Positions 34,563 through 46,132 of a DNA stretch of 58,189 nt are shown here, in pieces. The stretch spans positions 1 to 58,189 of the forward strand of contig NZ_RHPP01000010.1 in NCBI RefSeq assembly GCF_003935715.1, read 5' to 3'. The notes under the pieces were generated by a model. That model was given only the letters and a program-made list of their open reading frames with translations, did no database searches and had not been told where the DNA came from. Every line of letters starts with the position of its first letter. Positions within the stretch are counted from its first letter, which is position 1. A program made the position numbers and the translations under genes. Source of the stretch: Stenotrophomonas sp. 278. GTDB lineage: Bacteria; Pseudomonadota; Gammaproteobacteria; Xanthomonadales; Xanthomonadaceae.

Positions 34563-34832
34563 ATGCTGTTGAACGCCCCCAATGCAGCACTGATTGCCAG
34601 CTCCGTCACCGAAACCGCGGTCGACGCGCTGCGCCCGGCCCCAACACCACCGCCGAACGGCCGCGCGCTGCTGCCGGTGCTGGAGCAGCTGGCGCAGCAG
34701 GAACTGGCCCGCCTGGTCGCCGCGCAGCCGGCCCCCACCCCCACCCCCACCTGCAACCCGGCCTACGCCGGCCTCGCCTGGGACCTGGGGCTGAGTGGTG
34801 ACGAGTTCGATCCGGTCGCGCGCATCCCGTAA
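34563..34832 (+). CDS. Small Ala/Pro-rich protein, function unknown
   Basis: The 89-residue frame starts MLLNAPNAALIASSVTE and contains a predicted helix (LLPVLEQLAQQELARLVAAQ), a PAPTPTPT stretch encoded by CCCCCA repeats, and an acidic-aromatic end (AGLAWDLGLSGDEFDP). No signal peptide, membrane helix or known domain is seen, and no clear ribosome site. It may be real because its codon use looks ordinary, but a spurious frame cannot be excluded. Confidence 0.45.
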   Translation: MLLNAPNAALIASSVTETAVDALRPAPTPPPNGRALLPVLEQLAQQELARLVAAQPAPTPTPTCNPAYAGLAWDLGLSGDEFDPVARIP

Positions 34833-34859
34833 CGTCGCTCGCGTGATTGCACACGCTGC

Positions 34860-34882
34860 GTAGAGCCGGGCTCTGCCCGGCT
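34860..34882 (+). repeat. GTAG-type palindrome, left end of module A
   Basis: GTAG followed by AGCCGGGC-TCT-GCCCGGCT, a 7-8-base stem. The same 23-mer recurs at 41948-41970 and, inverted, at 35091-35113. Confidence 0.8.
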
Positions 34883-35090
34883 TGCTGTTGGATTTAGGCG
34901 AACAGCACTCGGCTCAAGGCATCCCTGGGTTGGCAGATGCCAAATCAACGGCGTTGTCGATCTGGGTCATGCGTTACCGGAAGTTGGGGATTTCACGGCC
35001 GTCGTCTGTCGACCGACGCTACCGGGCCGGAACCGCGCGCGGGCTTTGCTCTTCCGTGGCCACCGACGCACTGTCGGGGCGCCCAACAGC

Positions 35091-35113
35091 AGCCGGGCAG
35101 AGCCCGGCTCTAC
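35091..35113 (-). repeat. GTAG-type palindrome, right end of module A
   Basis: Exact inverted copy of the element at 34860-34882; CTAC is at the right edge. Confidence 0.8.
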
Positions 35114-35136
35114 GTAGACCACGCAATGGCGAACGG

Positions 35137-37914
35137 TTACGGCAGCGCCACAACCTCACGCGGCAGCGTTGCCGCCCCACCCGCTTTCAGGAACTGCGCG
35201 AGGTCGCGCGGGGTCAGCGGGCGGGAGTACAGGTAGCCCTGGATCTCATCGCAACCCTGGCGGCGCAGCAGGGCTTCTTCCTGCTCGGTTTCCACGCCTT
35301 CGGCCACCACCTTCATGCCCAGTGCGTGGCCCAGGTGCACGATCGCCTGGGTGACCTCGGCCGTGCCTGCGTCATGCAGCATGCCCTGGACGAAACTGCG
35401 GTCGATCTTCAAGCGGCCGACCGGGAACCGGTTGAGGTAGTGCAGGTTCGAGAACCCGGTGCCGAAATCATCCACCGCCAACGGTACCCCGTGCCGCTCG
35501 AGCACATCGAAGCAATCGCGCAGCACATCGGTGTCGCGGATCAGCGCCGACTCGGTCAGTTCCAGCTCCAGTCGGCTCGGTGGCCAGCCATGTGCGTGGC
35601 AGATTTCGATGACCCGCTCGGCAAATCCCCGGTCGCGCAGCTGCACGGCCGACACATTCACCGCGACCCGGTCGAATACCAGCCCCGCGCGATCCCAGGC
35701 CGCTGCCTGGCGACATGCTTCGGTCAGGACCCAGTCGCCGATGCGCACAATTTCGCCGCACTTTTCGGCAATCGGAATGAACTCGGCCGGACTGCAGTAG
35801 CCGATACCCGGGCGGTGCCAGCGCAGAAGGGCTTCAATGGCCGGCGGCTGGTCGTTGGCGGCGTGCATCAGCGGCTGGTAGGCCAGGCTGAATTCCTCGC
35901 GCTCGATCGCGCCCAGCAGCGCATGCTCGATCTCCAGCTTGCGCTGGATCCGGGCCAGCGCATCCTGGCTGTAATACTGGTACGTATTGCGCCCGGCTTC
36001 CTTGGCGGCATACATCGCCGCGTCCGCCGCGCGCAGCAGCGAATCGAAATCGCTGCGGGTGTCATCCAGCATGGCAATGCCCACGCTGGCCCCCACCTTC
36101 AGGGTAATGTCGCCACGCTGCAGGGGTTCGGCCAGGGACGCGATCAGCTTGCGCGCCACGTGCCCGGCATCTTCCGGGTCGGCCAGGTCGCGCAGCACCA
36201 CGATGAACTCGTCTCCGCTGAATCGTCCGAACAGGTCGGCATTGCGCAGGGCCTGGTGCAGGCGTGCCGCCGCAGCCTTGAGCAGCGTGTCGCCGGTGGC
36301 GTGGCCAAACGTGTCGTTGATGGTCTTGAAGCCGTCCAGGTCGATGAACAGCATCGCCAGGGAGGCATTCCGGTCACGCGCCTCCTCGATCGCCTCGGCA
36401 GTCTGCTCGCGCAGCAGCATCCGGTTCGGCAGGCCCGTCAGCAGGTCGTAATGCGCCAGCAGCTCGATGCGCTCGTTGGCTTCACGTTCGCGGGTGATGT
36501 CACGGAACAGGACCACGAAACGCGTCGGCAGGCCGTCGCGATGGTCCAGCTCGATCAGCACCTGCACCCAGATGCGCAGGCCGGAATGGCGGTAGAAGCA
36601 CAGGTCCAGCTGCTCAGGAAGCCCGCCGTCGGCAATGCGGGTCAGTGCCGCCTCGAAGCTGTCACGCGAATCCTGGGTGTACAGCGCCAGCGCCTGGTCC
36701 AGGGTGATCGGTTCCTTGCGAAGCCCATGGATGCGGTAGCACTCCTCGGTCCATTGCATGTTCCGGGTGGCCACCTCGATCTCGCAGCCGCCGATGCGGC
36801 CCAGCGCGGAGACCCGGTTGAGCAGTTCGGTCCGCCAGCGGATCAGCGCATCGGTCTGATGCTGCTCGGTGATGTTCTGGACCTGGCCGAGCAGACGCTG
36901 CATGCGGCCATCCGGGCGCAGCAGCGGCTGCATCCACAAGCGCAGATACAGCACGCCTTCGTTTCCGCGCGGCAGCTCCAGGTCCAGTGTGGCCGGCTTG
37001 CCGTCGCGCAGCAGACGCCGCCACGCACGCTGCAGCTCGGTCCGCGAATGCGGTGCCAACACCCGCAGCCAATGCCTCCGGCTCAGCGGTGCCCGGCTCA
37101 CGCCCAGCAATGCAAGCAATTCCGGCGACCACCAGAACTGGCGGCCATCCGGGTCCCAGGACCAGCTGCCCATGCTGGCAATCCGCTGGGCCTCGCGCAG
37201 GTGCAGCTGCTGCTCCAGCAGCTGCACCTCCATGTCCTTCTGGGCCTGGATGTCGGTGTGCGTGCCCACCATGCGCAATGGCTGGCCATCAACCGTGCGT
37301 GCCACCACCCGGCCGCGGTCCAGCACCCAGCGCCAGTCGCCCTCCGGGTGACGGATGCGGTACTGCGCGGTATAGACCTCGCCCTCGCCGCGCAGATGTG
37401 CGTCCAGCGCGCTGCGCACCGCCGGCTGATCGTCCGGATGCACCTGGGACAGCAGAGCGCTGCCCGCCCCGGCCGGAGCCGCCTCGTCGGCCTCGCGCGG
37501 CACATCATCCCAGCGACGCGAGCGTGTCACCGCATCACGCGGCAGGTCCCAGTCCCACAGGCCATGTCCGGCGTGGTCCAGGGCAAGCTCCCAGCGGCTA
37601 CCCGCATACGGAGCCACCGGCTCGGGCACGCTCAAGGTAAATGCCAGCAGCTGCCCGTCGGCATCATGCACCGCGCGCAGCCAGCCATCGAAGCGGCCAC
37701 GCGGACCGCCGGGCAGCTGGCATGGAACCAGGCCACCATCGGCCGCCAGCAGGCGCAAAGACTCCAGCAGCTCACCGTAGGCCGCCACGGTCGCCGGCAA
37801 CCCATGCTCACGCGCGACCGGATTGGCCGCGAGCGGGCGCCCGGTCCGGTCAAGGATGACCAGGGCCGAGGCCAGGGGGTGCTGCAGCAGACTCGCGATA
37901 ATCCCTTGGTCCAC
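35137..37914 (-). CDS. Multi-PAS diguanylate cyclase/phosphodiesterase (GGDEF-EAL)
   Basis: This protein of about 925 residues has no membrane helix. Three or more PAS-like segments are visible (start LASALVILDRTGRPLAANPV; SRWELALDHAGHGLWDWDLP; IASMGSWSWDPDGRQFWWSP; and ALGRIGGCEIEVATRNMQW). The cyclase domain has SGDEF in place of GGDEF (36205-36219), a variant found in active enzymes, plus DLLTGLPNR and FIDLDGFKTINDTFGH. The EAL domain is complete: IEALLRW, NVSAVQL, LTESAL, VDDFGTGFSN, KIDRSF, AEGVE and IQGY, so phosphodiesterase activity is likely. GTG 37914 with GGAG nine bases upstream is chosen; a GTG at 38010 would extend it by 32 residues and overlap the divergent promoter region. Confidence 0.88.
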   Translation of the reverse strand: MDQGIIASLLQHPLASALVILDRTGRPLAANPVAREHGLPATVAAYGELLESLRLLAADGGLVPCQLPGGPRGRFDGWLRAVHDADGQLLAFTLSVPEPVAPYAGSRWELALDHAGHGLWDWDLPRDAVTRSRRWDDVPREADEAAPAGAGSALLSQVHPDDQPAVRSALDAHLRGEGEVYTAQYRIRHPEGDWRWVLDRGRVVARTVDGQPLRMVGTHTDIQAQKDMEVQLLEQQLHLREAQRIASMGSWSWDPDGRQFWWSPELLALLGVSRAPLSRRHWLRVLAPHSRTELQRAWRRLLRDGKPATLDLELPRGNEGVLYLRLWMQPLLRPDGRMQRLLGQVQNITEQHQTDALIRWRTELLNRVSALGRIGGCEIEVATRNMQWTEECYRIHGLRKEPITLDQALALYTQDSRDSFEAALTRIADGGLPEQLDLCFYRHSGLRIWVQVLIELDHRDGLPTRFVVLFRDITREREANERIELLAHYDLLTGLPNRMLLREQTAEAIEEARDRNASLAMLFIDLDGFKTINDTFGHATGDTLLKAAAARLHQALRNADLFGRFSGDEFIVVLRDLADPEDAGHVARKLIASLAEPLQRGDITLKVGASVGIAMLDDTRSDFDSLLRAADAAMYAAKEAGRNTYQYYSQDALARIQRKLEIEHALLGAIEREEFSLAYQPLMHAANDQPPAIEALLRWHRPGIGYCSPAEFIPIAEKCGEIVRIGDWVLTEACRQAAAWDRAGLVFDRVAVNVSAVQLRDRGFAERVIEICHAHGWPPSRLELELTESALIRDTDVLRDCFDVLERHGVPLAVDDFGTGFSNLHYLNRFPVGRLKIDRSFVQGMLHDAGTAEVTQAIVHLGHALGMKVVAEGVETEQEEALLRRQGCDEIQGYLYSRPLTPRDLAQFLKAGGAATLPREVVALP

Positions 37915-38055
37915 GCGGTAAGACTCCGAAATGCGCACCCGACAGCCGGGAACGTAACCGTTAGCGGCGGACCACGCAGATAGTTGAGTGCCATGTGCGT
38001 ACCGACCCACTACTATCTATGTACTCCCCGCCCTGCCCCGGTTGCCCTGCCCCCC

Positions 38056-40158
38056 ATGACCGACGCCTCCGGCTCGCTTCCACCCACCGCGCATGACGGC
38101 CCGCTGGCCCGCGCGCTGCGGCGCGACCGCTGGCGTGTGGTGCTGGGCTACCTGGTCCTGGCGCTGGTCTGGATCCTCTCCAGCGACGCGGCGGTCCAGA
38201 TGCTGGCCATGGACCCCGCCGTCGCGGCCCGCTGGCAGACCGTCAAAGGGGCCTTCTTCGTCATCGCCAGCGCCGCAGTGATCTATCTGCTGCTGCGACC
38301 ACTCGCCCAGCACGTGCTGGATGCCCACGCACGGCTGGCACAGTCGGCGCTGCGCCACCGCCAGCTGTTCGAGGACAACCCCGGTCCGATCCTGGTGTAC
38401 GACCTGGACACGCTGGAGGTGCTGGACGTCAATCCGGCAGCATGCACGCTGTTCGGCTGGAGCCGGGACGAGTTTCTGGCGTTGCAGATCACCTCGCTGT
38501 GGCCGCCTGGCGACGAAGCGGCCATGCATGCCAAGCTGGACCAGATCCGCTCGCAGCCGGAGCAGCTGTGTGTGATCACCGCCGACCTGGTGCTCAAGGA
38601 TGGCAGTCCCCGACGCATGGAAATGCGCAGCAACTACCTCGACTACGACGGACGACCGGCCCGGCTGCTGATCGCCATCGACCGGACCCGCGAGGACCAG
38701 GCCCTGCGCCGCCGCGACCAGGCGCTGGCGCGGGTCGAGGAAGCGCACGAAATGGCCCGCATCGGCGCATGGGAAGTCGATCCGGCCACCGGGCTGGGGC
38801 GCTTTGCCGACCAGGTGTACCACCTGCTCGGTCGTCGCCCGCCAGGCGCGCGGCGCTGGCACCGGTTCGAGGAACTGCTGGTCCCGGCCGATTCCTCCAC
38901 CGCGGCACTGAGCGAACAGCTGCTGCAGGACATGCGCGGTGAGCAGGTCCAGATCGATGTACTGCTCCCCCTGCTGGCCATGGACGGGCGCGCCCTGATG
39001 GTGCATCTGCGTGCAGAAAGCGGGACTGACGATGCAGGCCGGCCGCGGGTGCTGGGCACCCTGCAGGACGTGACCGAGCGCGAGCAGTCACGACGCCTGC
39101 TGCGCGAGCGTGAAGAACAGTTCCGCGAGCTGGTGCGGGTGCTGCCCGACGGCGTGGTGATCCTGTCTGACGAGCATGTGCTGTACGCCAACGCCTGCGC
39201 CGCCGCGCAGTTCGGGTATGGCCAGCACACCCTGCTGGGCGAGCCGCTGTCTGCGCTGGTGGAAGCGCACCACCTCGCGCGGGTGCGGGCGCAGCTGTTT
39301 GCGACCATTCCGCTTCCCGGCACGGGTGCCGGCGAAGTCATCGGCATGCGCCGTCTCGACGGCCAGTGCTTCCAGGCTGGGCTGGCCGTTGGCGACGTCC
39401 GTTATGGCGGCCGCAACTGCAAACTGCTGATCGTGCGTGACCTGACGGAGCCGGAACGGATCCGGCAGGCGCTGGAAACCAGCAACGGAGAGCTGCAGGC
39501 CATGGCCGGCCGTCTGTTCTCGCTGCAGGAAGACGAACGCCGCGCCATTTCCCGCGACCTGCACGACGACATCGGGCAGGCGATCACCGCCATGAAACTG
39601 TCAGCCTTCGCCGCCCGCGACGAAGAGGATGCACACAGACGCGGCGAGGATCTGCAGCAGATCATCCACATGGCAGACGCCACGGTCGCCAAGGTACGCG
39701 ACATCTCCACCCTGCTGCGTCCGCCGCAGCTGGATGCCCTGGGGCTTGAAGCGGCTCTGCGCTGGCAGGCCGGCATGCTGTTCCGTTCCGGCAGCGTCGA
39801 GCTGCTGGCGGACATCCAGACGCTGCCACGCCGCCCGGGCAACGACATCGAGCAGGCCTGCTTCCGCATCGCACAGGAAAGCCTCACCAACGTCCTGCGC
39901 CATGCGCGCGCCAGCCAGGTGCTCGTGCACCTTCACGACGTGGACGACCACGGCCTGCACCTGCAGGTCCGCGATGACGGCGAAGGGTTCGACCCGGATG
40001 GCCCGCGCGGGTTGGGGCTGATCGTGATGCGCGAACGTGCGCAGAGCGTGGGTGGCACCCTCAAGATCGAGTCGGCGCACGGTGCCGGCACCCTGATCGA
40101 CCTTTATCTGCCGTACCGCAGCAGCGGTCCGGCCACTTCTGAATCACTGGAACACTGA
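38056..40158 (+). CDS. PAS-domain sensor histidine kinase, NarL/HisKA_3 class
   Basis: This 700-residue protein has two N-terminal membrane helices (VVLGYLVLALVWIL; GAFFVIASAAVIYLLL) and three PAS regions (LFEDNPGPILVYDLDTLEVL; MARIGAWEVDPATG; FRELVRVLPDGVVILSDEHV). The kinase core is HisKA_3 with His503 in ISRDLHDDIGQAITAMK, and HATPase motifs FRIAQESLTNVLRHA and VRDDGEGFD then GLGLIVMRER. Such kinases normally phosphorylate NarL-type regulators, but no such gene is next to it. The next gene starts three bases after its stop and carries a receiver fused to c-di-GMP domains, making that protein the obvious candidate partner. Confidence 0.9.
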   Translation: MTDASGSLPPTAHDGPLARALRRDRWRVVLGYLVLALVWILSSDAAVQMLAMDPAVAARWQTVKGAFFVIASAAVIYLLLRPLAQHVLDAHARLAQSALRHRQLFEDNPGPILVYDLDTLEVLDVNPAACTLFGWSRDEFLALQITSLWPPGDEAAMHAKLDQIRSQPEQLCVITADLVLKDGSPRRMEMRSNYLDYDGRPARLLIAIDRTREDQALRRRDQALARVEEAHEMARIGAWEVDPATGLGRFADQVYHLLGRRPPGARRWHRFEELLVPADSSTAALSEQLLQDMRGEQVQIDVLLPLLAMDGRALMVHLRAESGTDDAGRPRVLGTLQDVTEREQSRRLLREREEQFRELVRVLPDGVVILSDEHVLYANACAAAQFGYGQHTLLGEPLSALVEAHHLARVRAQLFATIPLPGTGAGEVIGMRRLDGQCFQAGLAVGDVRYGGRNCKLLIVRDLTEPERIRQALETSNGELQAMAGRLFSLQEDERRAISRDLHDDIGQAITAMKLSAFAARDEEDAHRRGEDLQQIIHMADATVAKVRDISTLLRPPQLDALGLEAALRWQAGMLFRSGSVELLADIQTLPRRPGNDIEQACFRIAQESLTNVLRHARASQVLVHLHDVDDHGLHLQVRDDGEGFDPDGPRGLGLIVMRERAQSVGGTLKIESAHGAGTLIDLYLPYRSSGPATSESLEH

Positions 40159-40161
40159 GTC

Positions 40162-41913
40162 ATGTGGAACCCTTCCCTGCCCCTGGTCAGCATCGAGGAC
40201 GCCCCTGCGCGCCTGGGCGCGGGCAACCCTGAACTGCAGGCCATGGTGCACGAGGCCGCCTCCGGTGGCACGCCGCTGATGCTCATGCACGTGGACATCG
40301 ACCATTTCGCGTCGGTCAACGAGAACATGAGCGCGGAGGTGGGTGACCAGGCCCTGGTGCTCATTGCCCAGCGCCTGCAGCACCACCTGCGCGGGCGCGG
40401 CAAACTGTGGCGCCATGGCAGCGACGAGTTCCTGATTGCCGTGCCGCGGACCGGCGACCTGCCGCTGCCCGATGACCTCGCCGAGGAAATCCGCCAGCAG
40501 CTGGAGCTGCCCCTTTCGGTGCTTCCGTACACACTGTTCATGACCGGCAAACTCGGCGTGAGCCTCTGTCCGGAGCATGCCAGCGAGCCATCCCGCCTGC
40601 TTGATCATGCCGAAGACGCGCTCCACCAGGCCGCACGCGAAGGTGGCAATGCGGTGCGCATCCATGCGGTGAACACACCGTCCAGCGCCCACAGCGAAAG
40701 CATCATCGCGCGACAGATCGTCGATGCCATTCCCAACGGCGAACTGAAGCTGCGCTACCAGCCACTGGTGAGCGCGCGCGATGGCCATGTGGTGGGCATG
40801 GAGGCGCTGCTGCGCTGGCAGTCCCCTACCCTGGGCATGCTGGTGCCGGAGCGCTTCATGCGCACCGCCGAGCGCCTGGGCATCATCGTGCAGATCGGCA
40901 CCTGGGTGCTGGAAGGCGCGCTGAAACAGGCACGACAGTGGCGCGACCAGGGTTTTGATGACTTCACCATTGCAGTGAATGTGTCGACGCTGCAGCTGCT
41001 GCGGCCGAACTTCTTCGCCGAGGTGATGGCGATGATGCAGACGCTGGGGGTACCGGCGCACATGCTGACGCTGGAGATCAACGAAAGCGCGCTGACCAAC
41101 AACGTGAACTTCGTGCACGAAACCCTGGTGAACCTGCGCAACGAGGGCATCAGCCTGAGCCTGGACAACTTCGGCACGGGCGACTCCAGCCTGAGCGCAC
41201 TGGTGCGCTACCCGGTGGACAAGCTGAAGATCGACCGCAGCTTCATCAAGAGTGCTCCGGCCGGTAACCGCGAAGCCGCCATTGCCCGCGCGATCATCGC
41301 GATGGGCCATCAGCTGGGCATGACGGTGATCGCCAACGGCGTGGAGTCGCAGGCGCAGCTGGGCTTCCTGCGTCGCAACGACTGCGATGTGTTCCAGGGC
41401 TATCTGTTCGGCGAACCGATGTCGGCGGACGCGGCAGGCATGACCCTGCGCCGGCGCTATCTGCGCCCGGAGGCCTTCGCCGAGACCCGCCCGGACCGGA
41501 CGCTGCTGCTGCTGGACGACGAGGAGAACGTGCTGCGCTCGCTGGTGCGTCTGTTCCGTCGCGACGGCTATCGCATCCTGGCAGCGGGCAACGTCCGCGA
41601 TGCCTTCGACCTGCTGGCGATCAACGACGTACAGGTGATCCTGTCGGACCAGCGCATGAGCGACATGAGCGGCACCGAGTTCCTGGGCCGGGTGAAAATG
41701 CTCTACCCGGACACGATCCGGCTGGTGTTGTCCGGCTACACCGACCTCAATACGGTCACCGACGCAATCAACCGCGGCGCGATCTACCGCTTCCTGACCA
41801 AGCCCTGGAACGACGACGAGCTGCGCAAGCACATCCACCAGGCCTTCCGCACCCACGAAGAACAACGCCGCGCCAACACCGCACCGCCGGTCGCCGCCGA
41901 AGACGAGCCCTGA
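40162..41913 (+). CDS. GGDEF-EAL protein with C-terminal receiver domain; degenerate catalytic motifs
   Basis: This 583-residue cytosolic protein has GGDEF (about 25-165), EAL (about 180-425) and receiver (about 440-560) domains in that order. The cyclase signature reads GSDEF (residues 86-90). In the EAL domain, EAL (214-216), NVS, KIDRSF and FQGYLFGEP are present, but the metal-binding DDFGTG is DNFGTG (Asn336), and EGVE is NGVE (Asn392). Catalysis is therefore doubtful; the protein may bind c-di-GMP or act through contacts. The receiver has LLLDDEE, Asp496 in ILSDQRMSDMSG and the LTKPW lysine, and is intact. It follows the NarL-class kinase by three bases. Confidence 0.9.
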   Translation: MWNPSLPLVSIEDAPARLGAGNPELQAMVHEAASGGTPLMLMHVDIDHFASVNENMSAEVGDQALVLIAQRLQHHLRGRGKLWRHGSDEFLIAVPRTGDLPLPDDLAEEIRQQLELPLSVLPYTLFMTGKLGVSLCPEHASEPSRLLDHAEDALHQAAREGGNAVRIHAVNTPSSAHSESIIARQIVDAIPNGELKLRYQPLVSARDGHVVGMEALLRWQSPTLGMLVPERFMRTAERLGIIVQIGTWVLEGALKQARQWRDQGFDDFTIAVNVSTLQLLRPNFFAEVMAMMQTLGVPAHMLTLEINESALTNNVNFVHETLVNLRNEGISLSLDNFGTGDSSLSALVRYPVDKLKIDRSFIKSAPAGNREAAIARAIIAMGHQLGMTVIANGVESQAQLGFLRRNDCDVFQGYLFGEPMSADAAGMTLRRRYLRPEAFAETRPDRTLLLLDDEENVLRSLVRLFRRDGYRILAAGNVRDAFDLLAINDVQVILSDQRMSDMSGTEFLGRVKMLYPDTIRLVLSGYTDLNTVTDAINRGAIYRFLTKPWNDDELRKHIHQAFRTHEEQRRANTAPPVAAEDEP

Positions 41914-41947
41914 TTTTGGCTACACGCATTGCGATTGCCTGCTCTAC

Positions 41948-41970
41948 GTAGAGCCGGGCTCTGCCCGGCT
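41948..41970 (+). repeat. GTAG-type palindrome, left end of module B
   Basis: Same 23-mer as at 34860-34882, 35 bases after the stop of the receiver gene. Confidence 0.8.
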
Positions 41971-42276
41971 GCTGTTGGTTTTAGGCGAACAGCCGGTGGC
42001 CGATGATCTACGTGCTTTGGGCCATCGGATGGCCCTTCGATACATGGTCGGTGGCCATGGGAATGCCGAATCAACGGCAGCGTTCCGTGCTTTTGATCTT
42101 CGATGGCCACCGACGCACTGTCGATGGCGGGTCGGGATGGGCTGGAGGGGGCACGAGCCGCATGGATGCGGCGATGAGCTTACATGGACGTATTCACAGC
42201 GTCCCCCGGAACGCCCGTCCCGAGCCGCCAATCCAGAGGACCGATGCCCACCGGCTGTTCGCCCAAAGCCAACATC

Positions 42277-42299
42277 AGCCGGGCAACGCCCGGCGGTAC
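42277..42299 (-). repeat. GTAC-variant palindrome, right end of module B
   Basis: On the minus strand it reads GTACCGCCGGGC-GTT-GCCCGGCT, a related hairpin with GTAC instead of GTAG. Confidence 0.65.
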
Positions 42300-42333
42300 G
42301 TAGATCGTGCAACCAGGGCGGTTCGCGAACAAC

Positions 42334-43563
42334 TCACCGCGGCTGCTTGATCGGCAGCACCAGGCGGAACTTCGAACCTACGCCGGGGGTGCTGTCCAGG
42401 TCGATGCGACCGTGGTGCTTGTTGACGATGCTGTAGGAGATCGACAGGCCCAGGCCGGTGCCGCTGCCGACCGGCTTGGTGGTGAAGAACGGGTCGAAGA
42501 TGCGCTGGCGCAGTTCCGGCGAAATACCGCCGCCGGTGTCCTCGAACTCCACCCAGACGGTGTCACCGTCCACGCCCGTGCGCACCGTGATCGTGCCGCG
42601 CTCGGCAATGGCGTGGCCTGCGTTGAGCAGCAGGTTCATGTACACCTGGTTCAATTCCGAAGGCAGGCATTCCACCAGCGGCAGCTGGCCGAACTCGCGC
42701 TTCAGGTCGACCTTGTACTTCAACTCGTTCCAGATGATGTTGATCGTCGATTCCAGACCCGCATGCAGGTCCACCAGCTTCCACGACTCATCGCGACCCG
42801 AGTATGAGAAGTCCTTGAGGTCACGCACGATACGTGTCACCCGCTCGATGCCCTCGCGGGACTCGGCCATCAGCTGCGGCAGGTCGCGGCTGATGAAGTC
42901 GATATCGAAGCGGTTGCGGATGTCGTCGATTTCCGGGATCAGCGCCTTCGGATCCGGTGCCCGCAAGGCACGCTCGTACGCCTCGATCACCGTGAACAGG
43001 CTGCGCAGGTATTCCTGCAGGCTGCCCAGGTTGGAGTGCACATAGCCGATCGGGTTGTTGATCTCATGCGCCACGCCGGCCGCCAACTGGCCGATCGACG
43101 CCATTTTCTCGGACTGCAGGAGCTTTTCCTGGGTGCCGTTCAGACGCAGATACGCCTGCCGCAGCTCCGCATGCCGCTGCTGCAGTTCGCGTTCATAGTC
43201 TTCCTGGCCCTCGATCCGACGGAACAAGGCCAGGTAGTGGCGCTGCCCGGCATCATCATGGTGATAGACATGGACGATCACCATGCGCTCACCCACCGGC
43301 AGGCTGCCGTTCCAGTGGCCGTGATTGCGGGCGTGCTCCAAGGCATCCGGCGGCAACAGCTGGCGCAGCCAATTGGCCGGGTTCAAGCCCGCTTCGCGCT
43401 CGGCCGGGGCCAGCATCCCGCGCACGGCGGCATTGGCCATCGCAATGCTGCCGTCCTCGCGGAACAGCAGTACGCCTTCATTGATCTGCTCGAACAGGGC
43501 CAGCAGCACCGGCTGCGGCGGCAAGGCGGCGGTAACGAACGTATGGGGTGTGGGCACGGTCAA
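42334..43563 (-). CDS. Sensor histidine kinase with PAS domain (HisKA class), soluble
   Basis: This 409-residue protein has no membrane segment. An N-terminal PAS domain ([22 protein letters not shown]) is followed by a coiled-coil ([22 protein letters not shown]) and a HisKA domain with the His in [15 protein letters not shown]. HATPase motifs are [37 protein letters not shown]. The type is that of kinases often paired with LTKPW receivers, like the receiver of the convergent GGDEF-EAL protein across repeat module B. It is upstream of flgN in orientation but separated by a hairpin. Confidence 0.92.
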
Positions 43564-46084: not shown

Positions 46085-46094
46085 CGCGAAGAGC

Positions 46095-46116
46095 AGCCGG
46101 GCAAGCCCGGCTCTAC
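46095..46116 (-). repeat. GTAG-type palindrome after cheV
   Basis: On the minus strand it starts GTAGAGCCGGGC and ends GCCCGGCT, a close relative of the module A and B ends, ten bases after the cheV stop. Confidence 0.75.
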
Positions 46117-46132
46117 GTCTCTCCGGTGAGGA

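Follow-up and report, generated by a model that had tools for sequence, protein, structure and literature searches.

What are the two long repeats that stand at either end of a block of signalling genes in Stenotrophomonas sp. 278, and how did they come to be there? The window analysed here is the whole stretch of 58,189 nucleotides at positions 1 to 58,189 of contig NZ_RHPP01000010.1 (assembly GCF_003935715.1). It contains two such repeats, module A (34860-35113) and module B (41948-42299), each of which occupies a gap between convergent genes. Both were picked out in a sequence-only reading of the window and both are present at the positions first given. They belong to a family of composite palindromic elements, and the family and its architecture are firm. 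The explanation that we somewhat favour is that A and B go back to one such element, anciently copied as a unit, and have since suffered internal deletions.

Modules A and B open with the same 23-mer, GTAGAGCCGGGCTCTGCCCGGC, at 34860 and 41948 on the forward strand, which is found at one further place in the window, inverted, at 35092. As had been described, A closes with this inverted copy and B with a variant, GTACCGCCGGGCGTTGCCCGGCT. Of the three inner blocks reported as shared, TTTAGGCGAACAG (34893 and 41980) and AATCAACGGC (34943 and 42069) are exact in both modules; the third is exact in A as GTGGCCACCGACGCACTGTC (35056) and appears in B, from 42103, as ATGGCCACCGACGCACTGTC with one change. 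BLASTN aligns the starts of A and B with 48/51 positions identical (E 2e-18), an inverted stretch with 36/36 (E 1e-15) and the third block with 29/32 (E 3e-9), a similarity that is far beyond chance.

The intact form of the element, taken from an alignment of fifteen copies, is about 515 bp long and has the order T-H-M-H-T. The T module comprises a GTAG palindrome, which is a repetitive extragenic palindrome (REP) of class SM7, and a conserved non-REP sequence, GCTGTTGGATTTGGGCGAACAGC; T is inverted at both ends of the element. The T-end REP, GTAGAGCCGGGCTCTGCCCGGCT, is found at 34860 and 41948 and inverted at 35092. It has the build of such REPs (GTAG or GTGG, then a palindrome of 8-9 pairs) and fits the SM7 consensus GTAGmGCCGGGyTCTrCCCGGCk as listed in Table 2 of Nunvar 2013 (PMC3686654). 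The H module is a hairpin arm with two subtypes, which we name Hp (TTTGCGGGACACGCC) and Hq (GGCTGGAGGGGGC). The M module has inverted ends, and its core carries another GTAG REP, Mr (GGTAGCGTCGGTCGACAGACGACGGC). Measured against this form, A (254 bp end to end) is missing both H arms, and B (352 bp) one arm together with the Mr core. Erosion may delete hairpin tips between short repeats, perhaps GATGG repeats in the case of the arm stub of B, and may reduce whole copies to one REP. A GATTGCACGATCTAC-like tail sits outside many, not all, T ends in genome G052, so the outer edge can lie beyond the 23-mer.

The complete genome G052 contains 37 composites that could be bounded, with about a dozen one-sided or unclear copies excluded; 18 are complete, six bear genes and 13 are partial. 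One Hp and one Hq arm are present in 17 of the 18 complete copies. In these 17 copies Mr is oriented one way in nine and the other way in eight while the arm order holds, which indicates that the core inverts or gets replaced; it may flip by inversion between the M ends. The fixed order and the mixed arms suggest that one unit was copied, and on these sequences spread as a unit is likely.

A search of the module-bearing genome with A and B found the inner blocks dispersed, with 95 (A) and 130 (B) matching stretches at E <=0.01, 40 of 357 and 40 of 281 first-look candidates being scored. Distribution in 91 Stenotrophomonas genomes was probed with the inner 21-mer of T, which excludes the REP palindrome, at no more than one mismatch. 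The 21-mer occurs 36 times in G000, 53 in G052, 46 in G077, 34 in G004, 33 in G005 and 35 in G006, and 1-4 times in seven further genomes (G027, G028, G029, G049, G057, G070 and G089). It is absent from 78 of the 91 at this threshold, and its reversed sequence has no match in any of them. M matches (E <=1e-5) are found in 12 of the 91, with nine candidates scored per genome. Contigs C3, C55, C68, C128 and C284 of G000 terminate in or near composites, so draft assemblies undercount them. The named records closest to the 957-aa neighbour of A are from Stenotrophomonas; the nearest, Stenotrophomonas sp. PS02289 (97% identity), has T, Hq and an M end at both window loci, and its contig stops inside the A copy. 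A plasmid or phage vehicle was rejected, as a full copy (551-base query) had no match in either collection in distant mode.

Alleles that are free of the element are found at several sites in relatives. The modules had been proposed to be a higher-order form of the Stenotrophomonas maltophilia GTAG (SMAG) palindromes with conserved inner segments; a dispersed family with element-free alleles bears this out, and the segments are neither confined to this genome nor fixed in all distant relatives. At the L174 site the composite is present in G052 and G077 (L316), pieces of it lie at two contig ends of G000 (L329 and L330) and an H piece is found in G029. The flanks of this site are contiguous in G059, G057, G005, G026 and G013, and in the sequences read, those of G059, G057, G005 and G013, a terminator-like hairpin separates the two convergent genes. 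The L181 site has a composite in G052 and just 23 bp between matched flank parts in G000, where the 56 flank bases next to the G052 element are likewise unmatched. The L183 site has a composite in G052 and G000 and a T-like remnant alone in G077. At the L177 site the composite is present in G052, G000, G077 and G005; at the same base G029 has a single T-like REP and G013 a different REP pair. No composite is present at L188 in G029 and G059, at L185 or L179 in G029, or at L184 in G005, and some of these sites hold a simple REP.

The window loci themselves were compared in the same way. Pieces of the genes flanking the modules are found in 86/91 genomes at the A side and 86/91 at the B side, and 30 loci per side were fetched out of the 86 matching genomes. 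Among these the A locus has a composite in G000 and G052 alone (in G077 a contig end interrupts it), and the B locus has one in G000, G052 and G077. G052 has a long composite at the junction where A is shorter and a complete one at the B locus; the B copy of G077 is without its left end. Elsewhere at the B locus G070 has arm and M-end fragments and G029 an H hairpin. The remaining loci read have simple REP pairs or unresolved sequence, and simple REP pairs occupy the B gap in many species. A link between the modules and the signalling block is not supported. The 35-42 kb block was rejected as a transposon with the modules as its ends, since pieces of its neighbours occur in 86/91 genomes on either side and few of the 30 loci per side have a composite.

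Published substrates of REP-associated tyrosine transposases (RAYTs) are inverted GTAG REPs. An ancestral T-H-M-H-T unit, itself non-autonomous, would have been copied to many places; the most likely agent is a RAYT working in trans on its T ends while these formed single-stranded hairpins. The RAYT family (PF01797) has three hits in G000, two in G052, one in G077, three in G004, three in G005 and two in G006. In the stretches read, T-type REPs lie beside RAYT in none of these six T-rich genomes. The REPs beside the RAYT hits of G000, G052 and G077, taken together, are of the GTAGAGCCACGC, GTAGCGCCGGCC, GTAGGTATCGACC and GTAGGGACACGCC types, with none recognised beside the hit of G077, which is close to a contig end. 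T-type REPs do lie around a RAYT in G029 (GTAGAGCCGGGCTCTGCCCGGCT, L406) and, as the near variant GTAGAGCCGGGTTCTACCCGGCT, in G059 (L405). The suggested link to RAYT is supported only in part. Transposition borne by T is plausible for the ancestors and has no support today in the six T-rich genomes. No cognate RAYT was found in this genome, where the copies are probably no longer moving but passed on at their sites and eroding. Present mobility is unproven, and we treat the RAYT role, like the 3'-end and carrier roles discussed below, as a hypothesis. An autonomous copy bearing a transposase was rejected, since the long copies read carry other genes and no transposase.

Other observations on RAYT concern the remaining REPs. 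In L176:1049-1095 and L309:861-907 (G052) the left T bears a GTAGAGCCACGC REP instead of GTAGAGCCGGGC, so the REP halves of T can be exchanged; the GTAGAGCCACGC REP is of the class adjoining the RAYT of L062. At L061:1369-2330 (contig C127 of G000) two Mr-like repeats lie upstream of a RAYT gene, whose product is a candidate for acting on Mr; the sequence beyond these repeats is presumably 5S-like. H arms were found beside none of the RAYT-like genes at the 33 of 41 RAYT hits with fetched loci. Among L382-L411 there are up to seven RAYT hits per Stenotrophomonas genome (G013), with distinct REP classes, and several RAYT-like genes have no nearby GTAG REP by a simple finder.

Several points, beginning with the RAYT result in the T-rich genomes, weigh against the copying of A and B as units. 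The proposal that the modules are mobile as units fits the order and arms of the complete G052 copies, but the arm rule is weaker elsewhere: mixed arms are present in just 6/10 two-armed partial gene-free copies of G052, and in 6/10 two-armed gene-free copies (L425, L431 and L433-L440) of a second lineage, G004, G005 and G006. G052 and G005 share composites or pieces at L177, L179, L182, L185, L188 and L193, so recent movement is rare at best. Gain is indistinguishable from loss at most sites, and no target-site duplication is seen at the sites read, the flanks there being too changed. Placement between convergent genes can stem from selection against insertions elsewhere. Published hairpin-forming REP doublets (REPINs) are far shorter than the composite, with REPs described as ~60-110 bp apart (PMC3116915, PMC3390384). 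A different history is that simple REPs and hairpins were inserted successively into the same convergent gaps, no composite unit ever having existed. The simple REPs at the B gap and the L177 site, the variable arm pairing and the H and Mr-like REPs also found outside composites in relatives speak for such a history. We consider it improbable, as the T-H-M-H-T order at 18 complete sites, 17 of them with mixed arms, would be hard to reach by independent assembly.

The placement of the composites raises the question of a function at the 3' ends of genes. With genes called by our own open reading frame (ORF) scoring, 32 of the 35 classifiable composites in G052 (37 in all) lie between convergent genes, three are codirectional and two are unclassified (binomial p ~1e-16 against a rough null of 0.25, which is not a measured background). 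The two copies in the window fold with far greater stability than shuffled sequences; the RNA fold z-score is -7.9 for A (34848-35120) and -11.5 for B (41934-42312), and the DNA fold z-score for B is -11.6. In an alignment of 11 same-orientation copies a T-T stem closes three branches with 175 predicted pairs, 31 of which have two-sided changes. A palindrome folds alike on both strands, so the fold does not identify RNA as the acting form; the sequences are compatible with a bidirectional hairpin between convergent genes. Copies of the unit may survive mainly in such gaps because insertion there would harm no promoter and the hairpin could end or protect both messages.

It is also possible that selection retains the modules for ending or protecting convergent messages in both directions, a reading compatible with unit copying and one that we find rather doubtful. 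The placement, the fold scores, the two-sided changes and the terminator-like hairpin that relatives have at the L174 site, and which is not seen in G052, all agree with it. Yet the arms missing from A and B differ, the core changes orientation and whole copies disappear, and hence no one RNA is preserved. The Rfam scan of the window gave no family at the gathering score, by which a known RNA family was also rejected as the identity of the modules, and the placement may be merely what selection tolerates.

Gene-bearing composites were found at 16 loci, representing 8 sites (Table 1). In 13 of these loci T was recognised at either outer end; the exceptions are L284, L291 and L426. RHH-like (ribbon-helix-helix) labels and, except in L291, SymE-like labels were assigned by reading the sequence; a 60-aa RHH-like member has no family match. 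An outward Mr pair surrounds the genes in seven loci (L174, L175, L176, L272, L282, L284 and L316; 5/8 sites). Of the others, L180 has one Mr, L273 and L283 have none recognised and L291 has two that are codirectional; none of the five second-lineage loci has an outward pair. The one-sided copies L296-L299, L301, L305 and L307 were rejected as very long cargo carriers, as ordinary-looking genes follow them.

Comparison of the same site in different genomes bears on how the genes came to be inside. The composite at the L175 site is empty in G005 and has genes inside in G052 and G000, where the right T is not recognised; the flanks are 82-91% identical. At the L176 site the unit is loaded in G052, empty in G000 and gene-free in G057, G029 and G005, and no unit is recognised in G059 and G013. 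L273 (G052) and L282 (G000) have orthologous flanks and partly different cargo. In G026 (L325) the neighbours of the L180 site enclose an X-Tfe-like effector gene paired with a lipoprotein gene, and no module is recognised there, so the genes at this site may predate the modules; in G005, G057 and G029 the flanks are contiguous and the pair is absent.

The gene-bearing copies suggest that simple palindromic repeats were assembled into a carrier that was once mobile. In some copies genes lie within M, and cargo may come and go. The opposite possibility, which we take seriously while placing it below even, is that these copies are accidental, modules having landed around pre-existing genes. The G026 pair favours accident, as do the restriction of outward Mr pairs to seven of the 16 loci, none of them in the second lineage, and the absence of H arms and M ends around further small RNA loci given below. 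The outer T modules of 13 loci and the empty and loaded states of the L175 and L176 sites argue against it. A more ambitious reading, which we regard as unlikely, is a nested REPIN platform, in which hairpin shells fixed between convergent genes dock exchangeable gene cassettes, with a transposase acting in trans. Such cassettes would be bounded by the inner REP Mr at several sites and would be lodged, lost or exchanged. Cargo of this sort so far includes SymE-like or RHH-like genes accompanied by sRNA-Xcc1, an AbiEii-like gene, and a putative pair made up of an X-Tfe effector and its partner.

The small RNA sRNA-Xcc1 (RF02221) scores above the gathering score in L180 and L289 and below it in L175, L282, L283, L284, L291, L295, L316 and L426-L430; L289 and L295 are one-sided copies with an adjoining match. 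G052 has at least 34 copies (131 of 265 candidates scored). Three of these, at 581971, 3154071 and 1024375 (one-sided), are in or beside a composite. H arms or M ends surround 0/20 further G052 loci fetched (11 others lie outside the sample), and outward Mr surrounds three of the 20 (L365, L367 and L372). Most sRNA-Xcc1 copies are not known to sit in composites. Matches number at least 28 in G000, at least 34 in G052 and at least 29 in G077, 10-15 in G004, G005, G006, G028, G029, G057 and G070, and 0-2 in the other ten of the 20 genomes scanned. The high copy number in M-bearing genomes is only suggestive, because the 20 genomes were picked partly by M. Many G052 sRNA-Xcc1 loci read adjoin SymE-like and RHH-like genes. 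The same 419-aa frame, which we take to be transposase-like, lies beside three of them (L372, L380 and L381).

The composite resembles several known systems. The SMAG/GTAG REPs of class SM7, as described in PMC3686654, include the same REP as the T ends and are likewise intergenic and in inverted pairs; here the REP makes up only the outer 23 bases of a ~515-bp unit with arms and a second REP. As in the REPINs of Bertels and Rainey 2011 (PMC3116915), the T pair is inverted with GTAG outward and forms one hairpin, and Mr too occurs as outward pairs. The composite is a REPIN-like structure around a second REP, with the T pair outside, Mr at the centre and the H arms between. Unlike a REPIN it has ends ~515 bp apart, against a published spacing of ~70-110 bp, an inner second REP and, in some copies, genes. 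Bacterial interspersed mosaic elements (BIMEs) of E. coli, as summarised in PMC3686654, are also mosaics of REPs and conserved non-REP motifs. T, Mr, the H arms and the M ends likewise combine REPs of alternating orientation with conserved motifs outside the palindromes, though not as tandem doublets. Unlike BIMEs the composite has a recurrent T-H-M-H-T order, much longer arms and two REP classes at two levels. It is more ordered than REPINs or BIMEs as these sources describe them.

The terminal inverted repeat (TIR) families and REP dimers with conserved spacers of Di Nocera 2013 (PMC3733652) are also long inverted repeats; some TIR families are described there as self-complementary, with REP-like grouping, and K279a has two. 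Their likeness to H or M is by description only. Terminal inverted repeats without coding capacity, as in miniature inverted-repeat transposable elements, are found in the gene-free copies only; as for a partner with the same ends, the long copies read contain no transposase and a T-flanked RAYT occurs in G029 and G059 only. Some composite cargo (RF02221 matches, SymE-like genes) is like that of the Xanthomonas integron cassettes with sRNA-Xcc1 and symE described in PMC12444791. Unlike those cassettes the composite has REP-based ends (attC sites were not searched for). A literature search of titles and abstract openings, of open-access scope, found no description of a composite REP unit with genes inside.

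According to PMC3390384 and PMC3686654, REPs and REPINs are small core-genome markers that avoid laterally acquired regions. The composite, framed by REPs, is about five times as long and keeps a recurrent order at many sites; inside some copies lie genes that are toxin-like, defence-like or for effectors. Neither the nesting of REPs at two levels nor the gene-holding copies were visible to the sequence-only reading. If the cargo reading is true, REP/RAYT systems would house or move genes, not only themselves, and the same-site empty and loaded pairs make this directly testable. The nested platform, if true, would amount to an integron-like repository for conflict genes that has neither integrase nor attC sites (no search for either was made). 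Within the window one extra T-type REP, inverted, lies beyond both modules at 46089-46118.

Table 1. Parts of modules A and B, their neighbouring genes and the gene-bearing composites
Feature	Position or locus (genome)	Strand	Remarks
A: variable outer tail outside left T (GATTGCACACGCTGC)	34845..34859	+	similar tail outside many G052 T ends
A: left T module	34860..34906	+	SM7-type GTAG REP + GCTGTTGGATTTAGGCGAACAGC
A: linker remaining where left H arm is missing	34907..34936	+	alignment of 15 modules
A: M module, left M end mostly lost	34937..35076	+	~40 own-genome matching stretches
A: inner GTAG REP Mr	34965-35023		within M module; GTAG on right
A: right M end	35045-35076		within M module
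A: right T module, inverted	35083..35113	-
A: outer tail of right T	35114..35127	-
B: outer tail of left T	41934..41947	+
B: left T module	41948..41994	+
B: left H arm remnant	41995..42044	+	GGGCCATCGGATGGCCC = rest of hairpin; vs full copies
B: M module without Mr core	42045..42123	+	both ends kept (42045-42078, 42091-42123)
B: right H arm, subtype Hq	42126..42229	-	CATGGATG loop
B: right T module, inverted variant	42253..42299	-
89-aa ORF left of A	34563..34832	+
957-aa gene right of A	35137..38010	-	presumably GGDEF/EAL-type, from sequence motifs
583-aa gene left of B	40162..41913	+	taken to be EAL/receiver-type
409-aa gene right of B	42334..43563	-	assumed histidine-kinase-type
Gene-bearing composite	L174 (G052)		RHH-like gene inside
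Gene-bearing composite	L175 (G052)		leader + RHH-like gene inside
Gene-bearing composite	L176 (G052)		198-aa protein inside, no Pfam or NCBIfam match
Gene-bearing composite	L180 (G052)		leader, RHH-like, lipoprotein-like and effector-like genes inside
Gene-bearing composite	L272 (G052)		ankyrin protein inside
Gene-bearing composite	L273 (G052)		PF08843 AbiEii-like gene (above its cut-off) + others inside
Gene-bearing composite	L282 (G000)		SymE-like gene + others inside
Gene-bearing composite	L283 (G000)		L180 site; PF20410 X-Tfe XVIPCD
Gene-bearing composite	L284 (G000)		L175 site
Gene-bearing composite	L291 (G000)		SymE-like gene (PF08845, E 1e-4, below cut-off) + LAPAL-family protein
Gene-bearing composite	L316 (G077)		L174 site
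Gene-bearing composites	L426 (G005), L428 (G004), L429 (G006)		one second-lineage site
Gene-bearing composites	L427 (G004), L430 (G006)		one second-lineage site; L427 left flank common to L291

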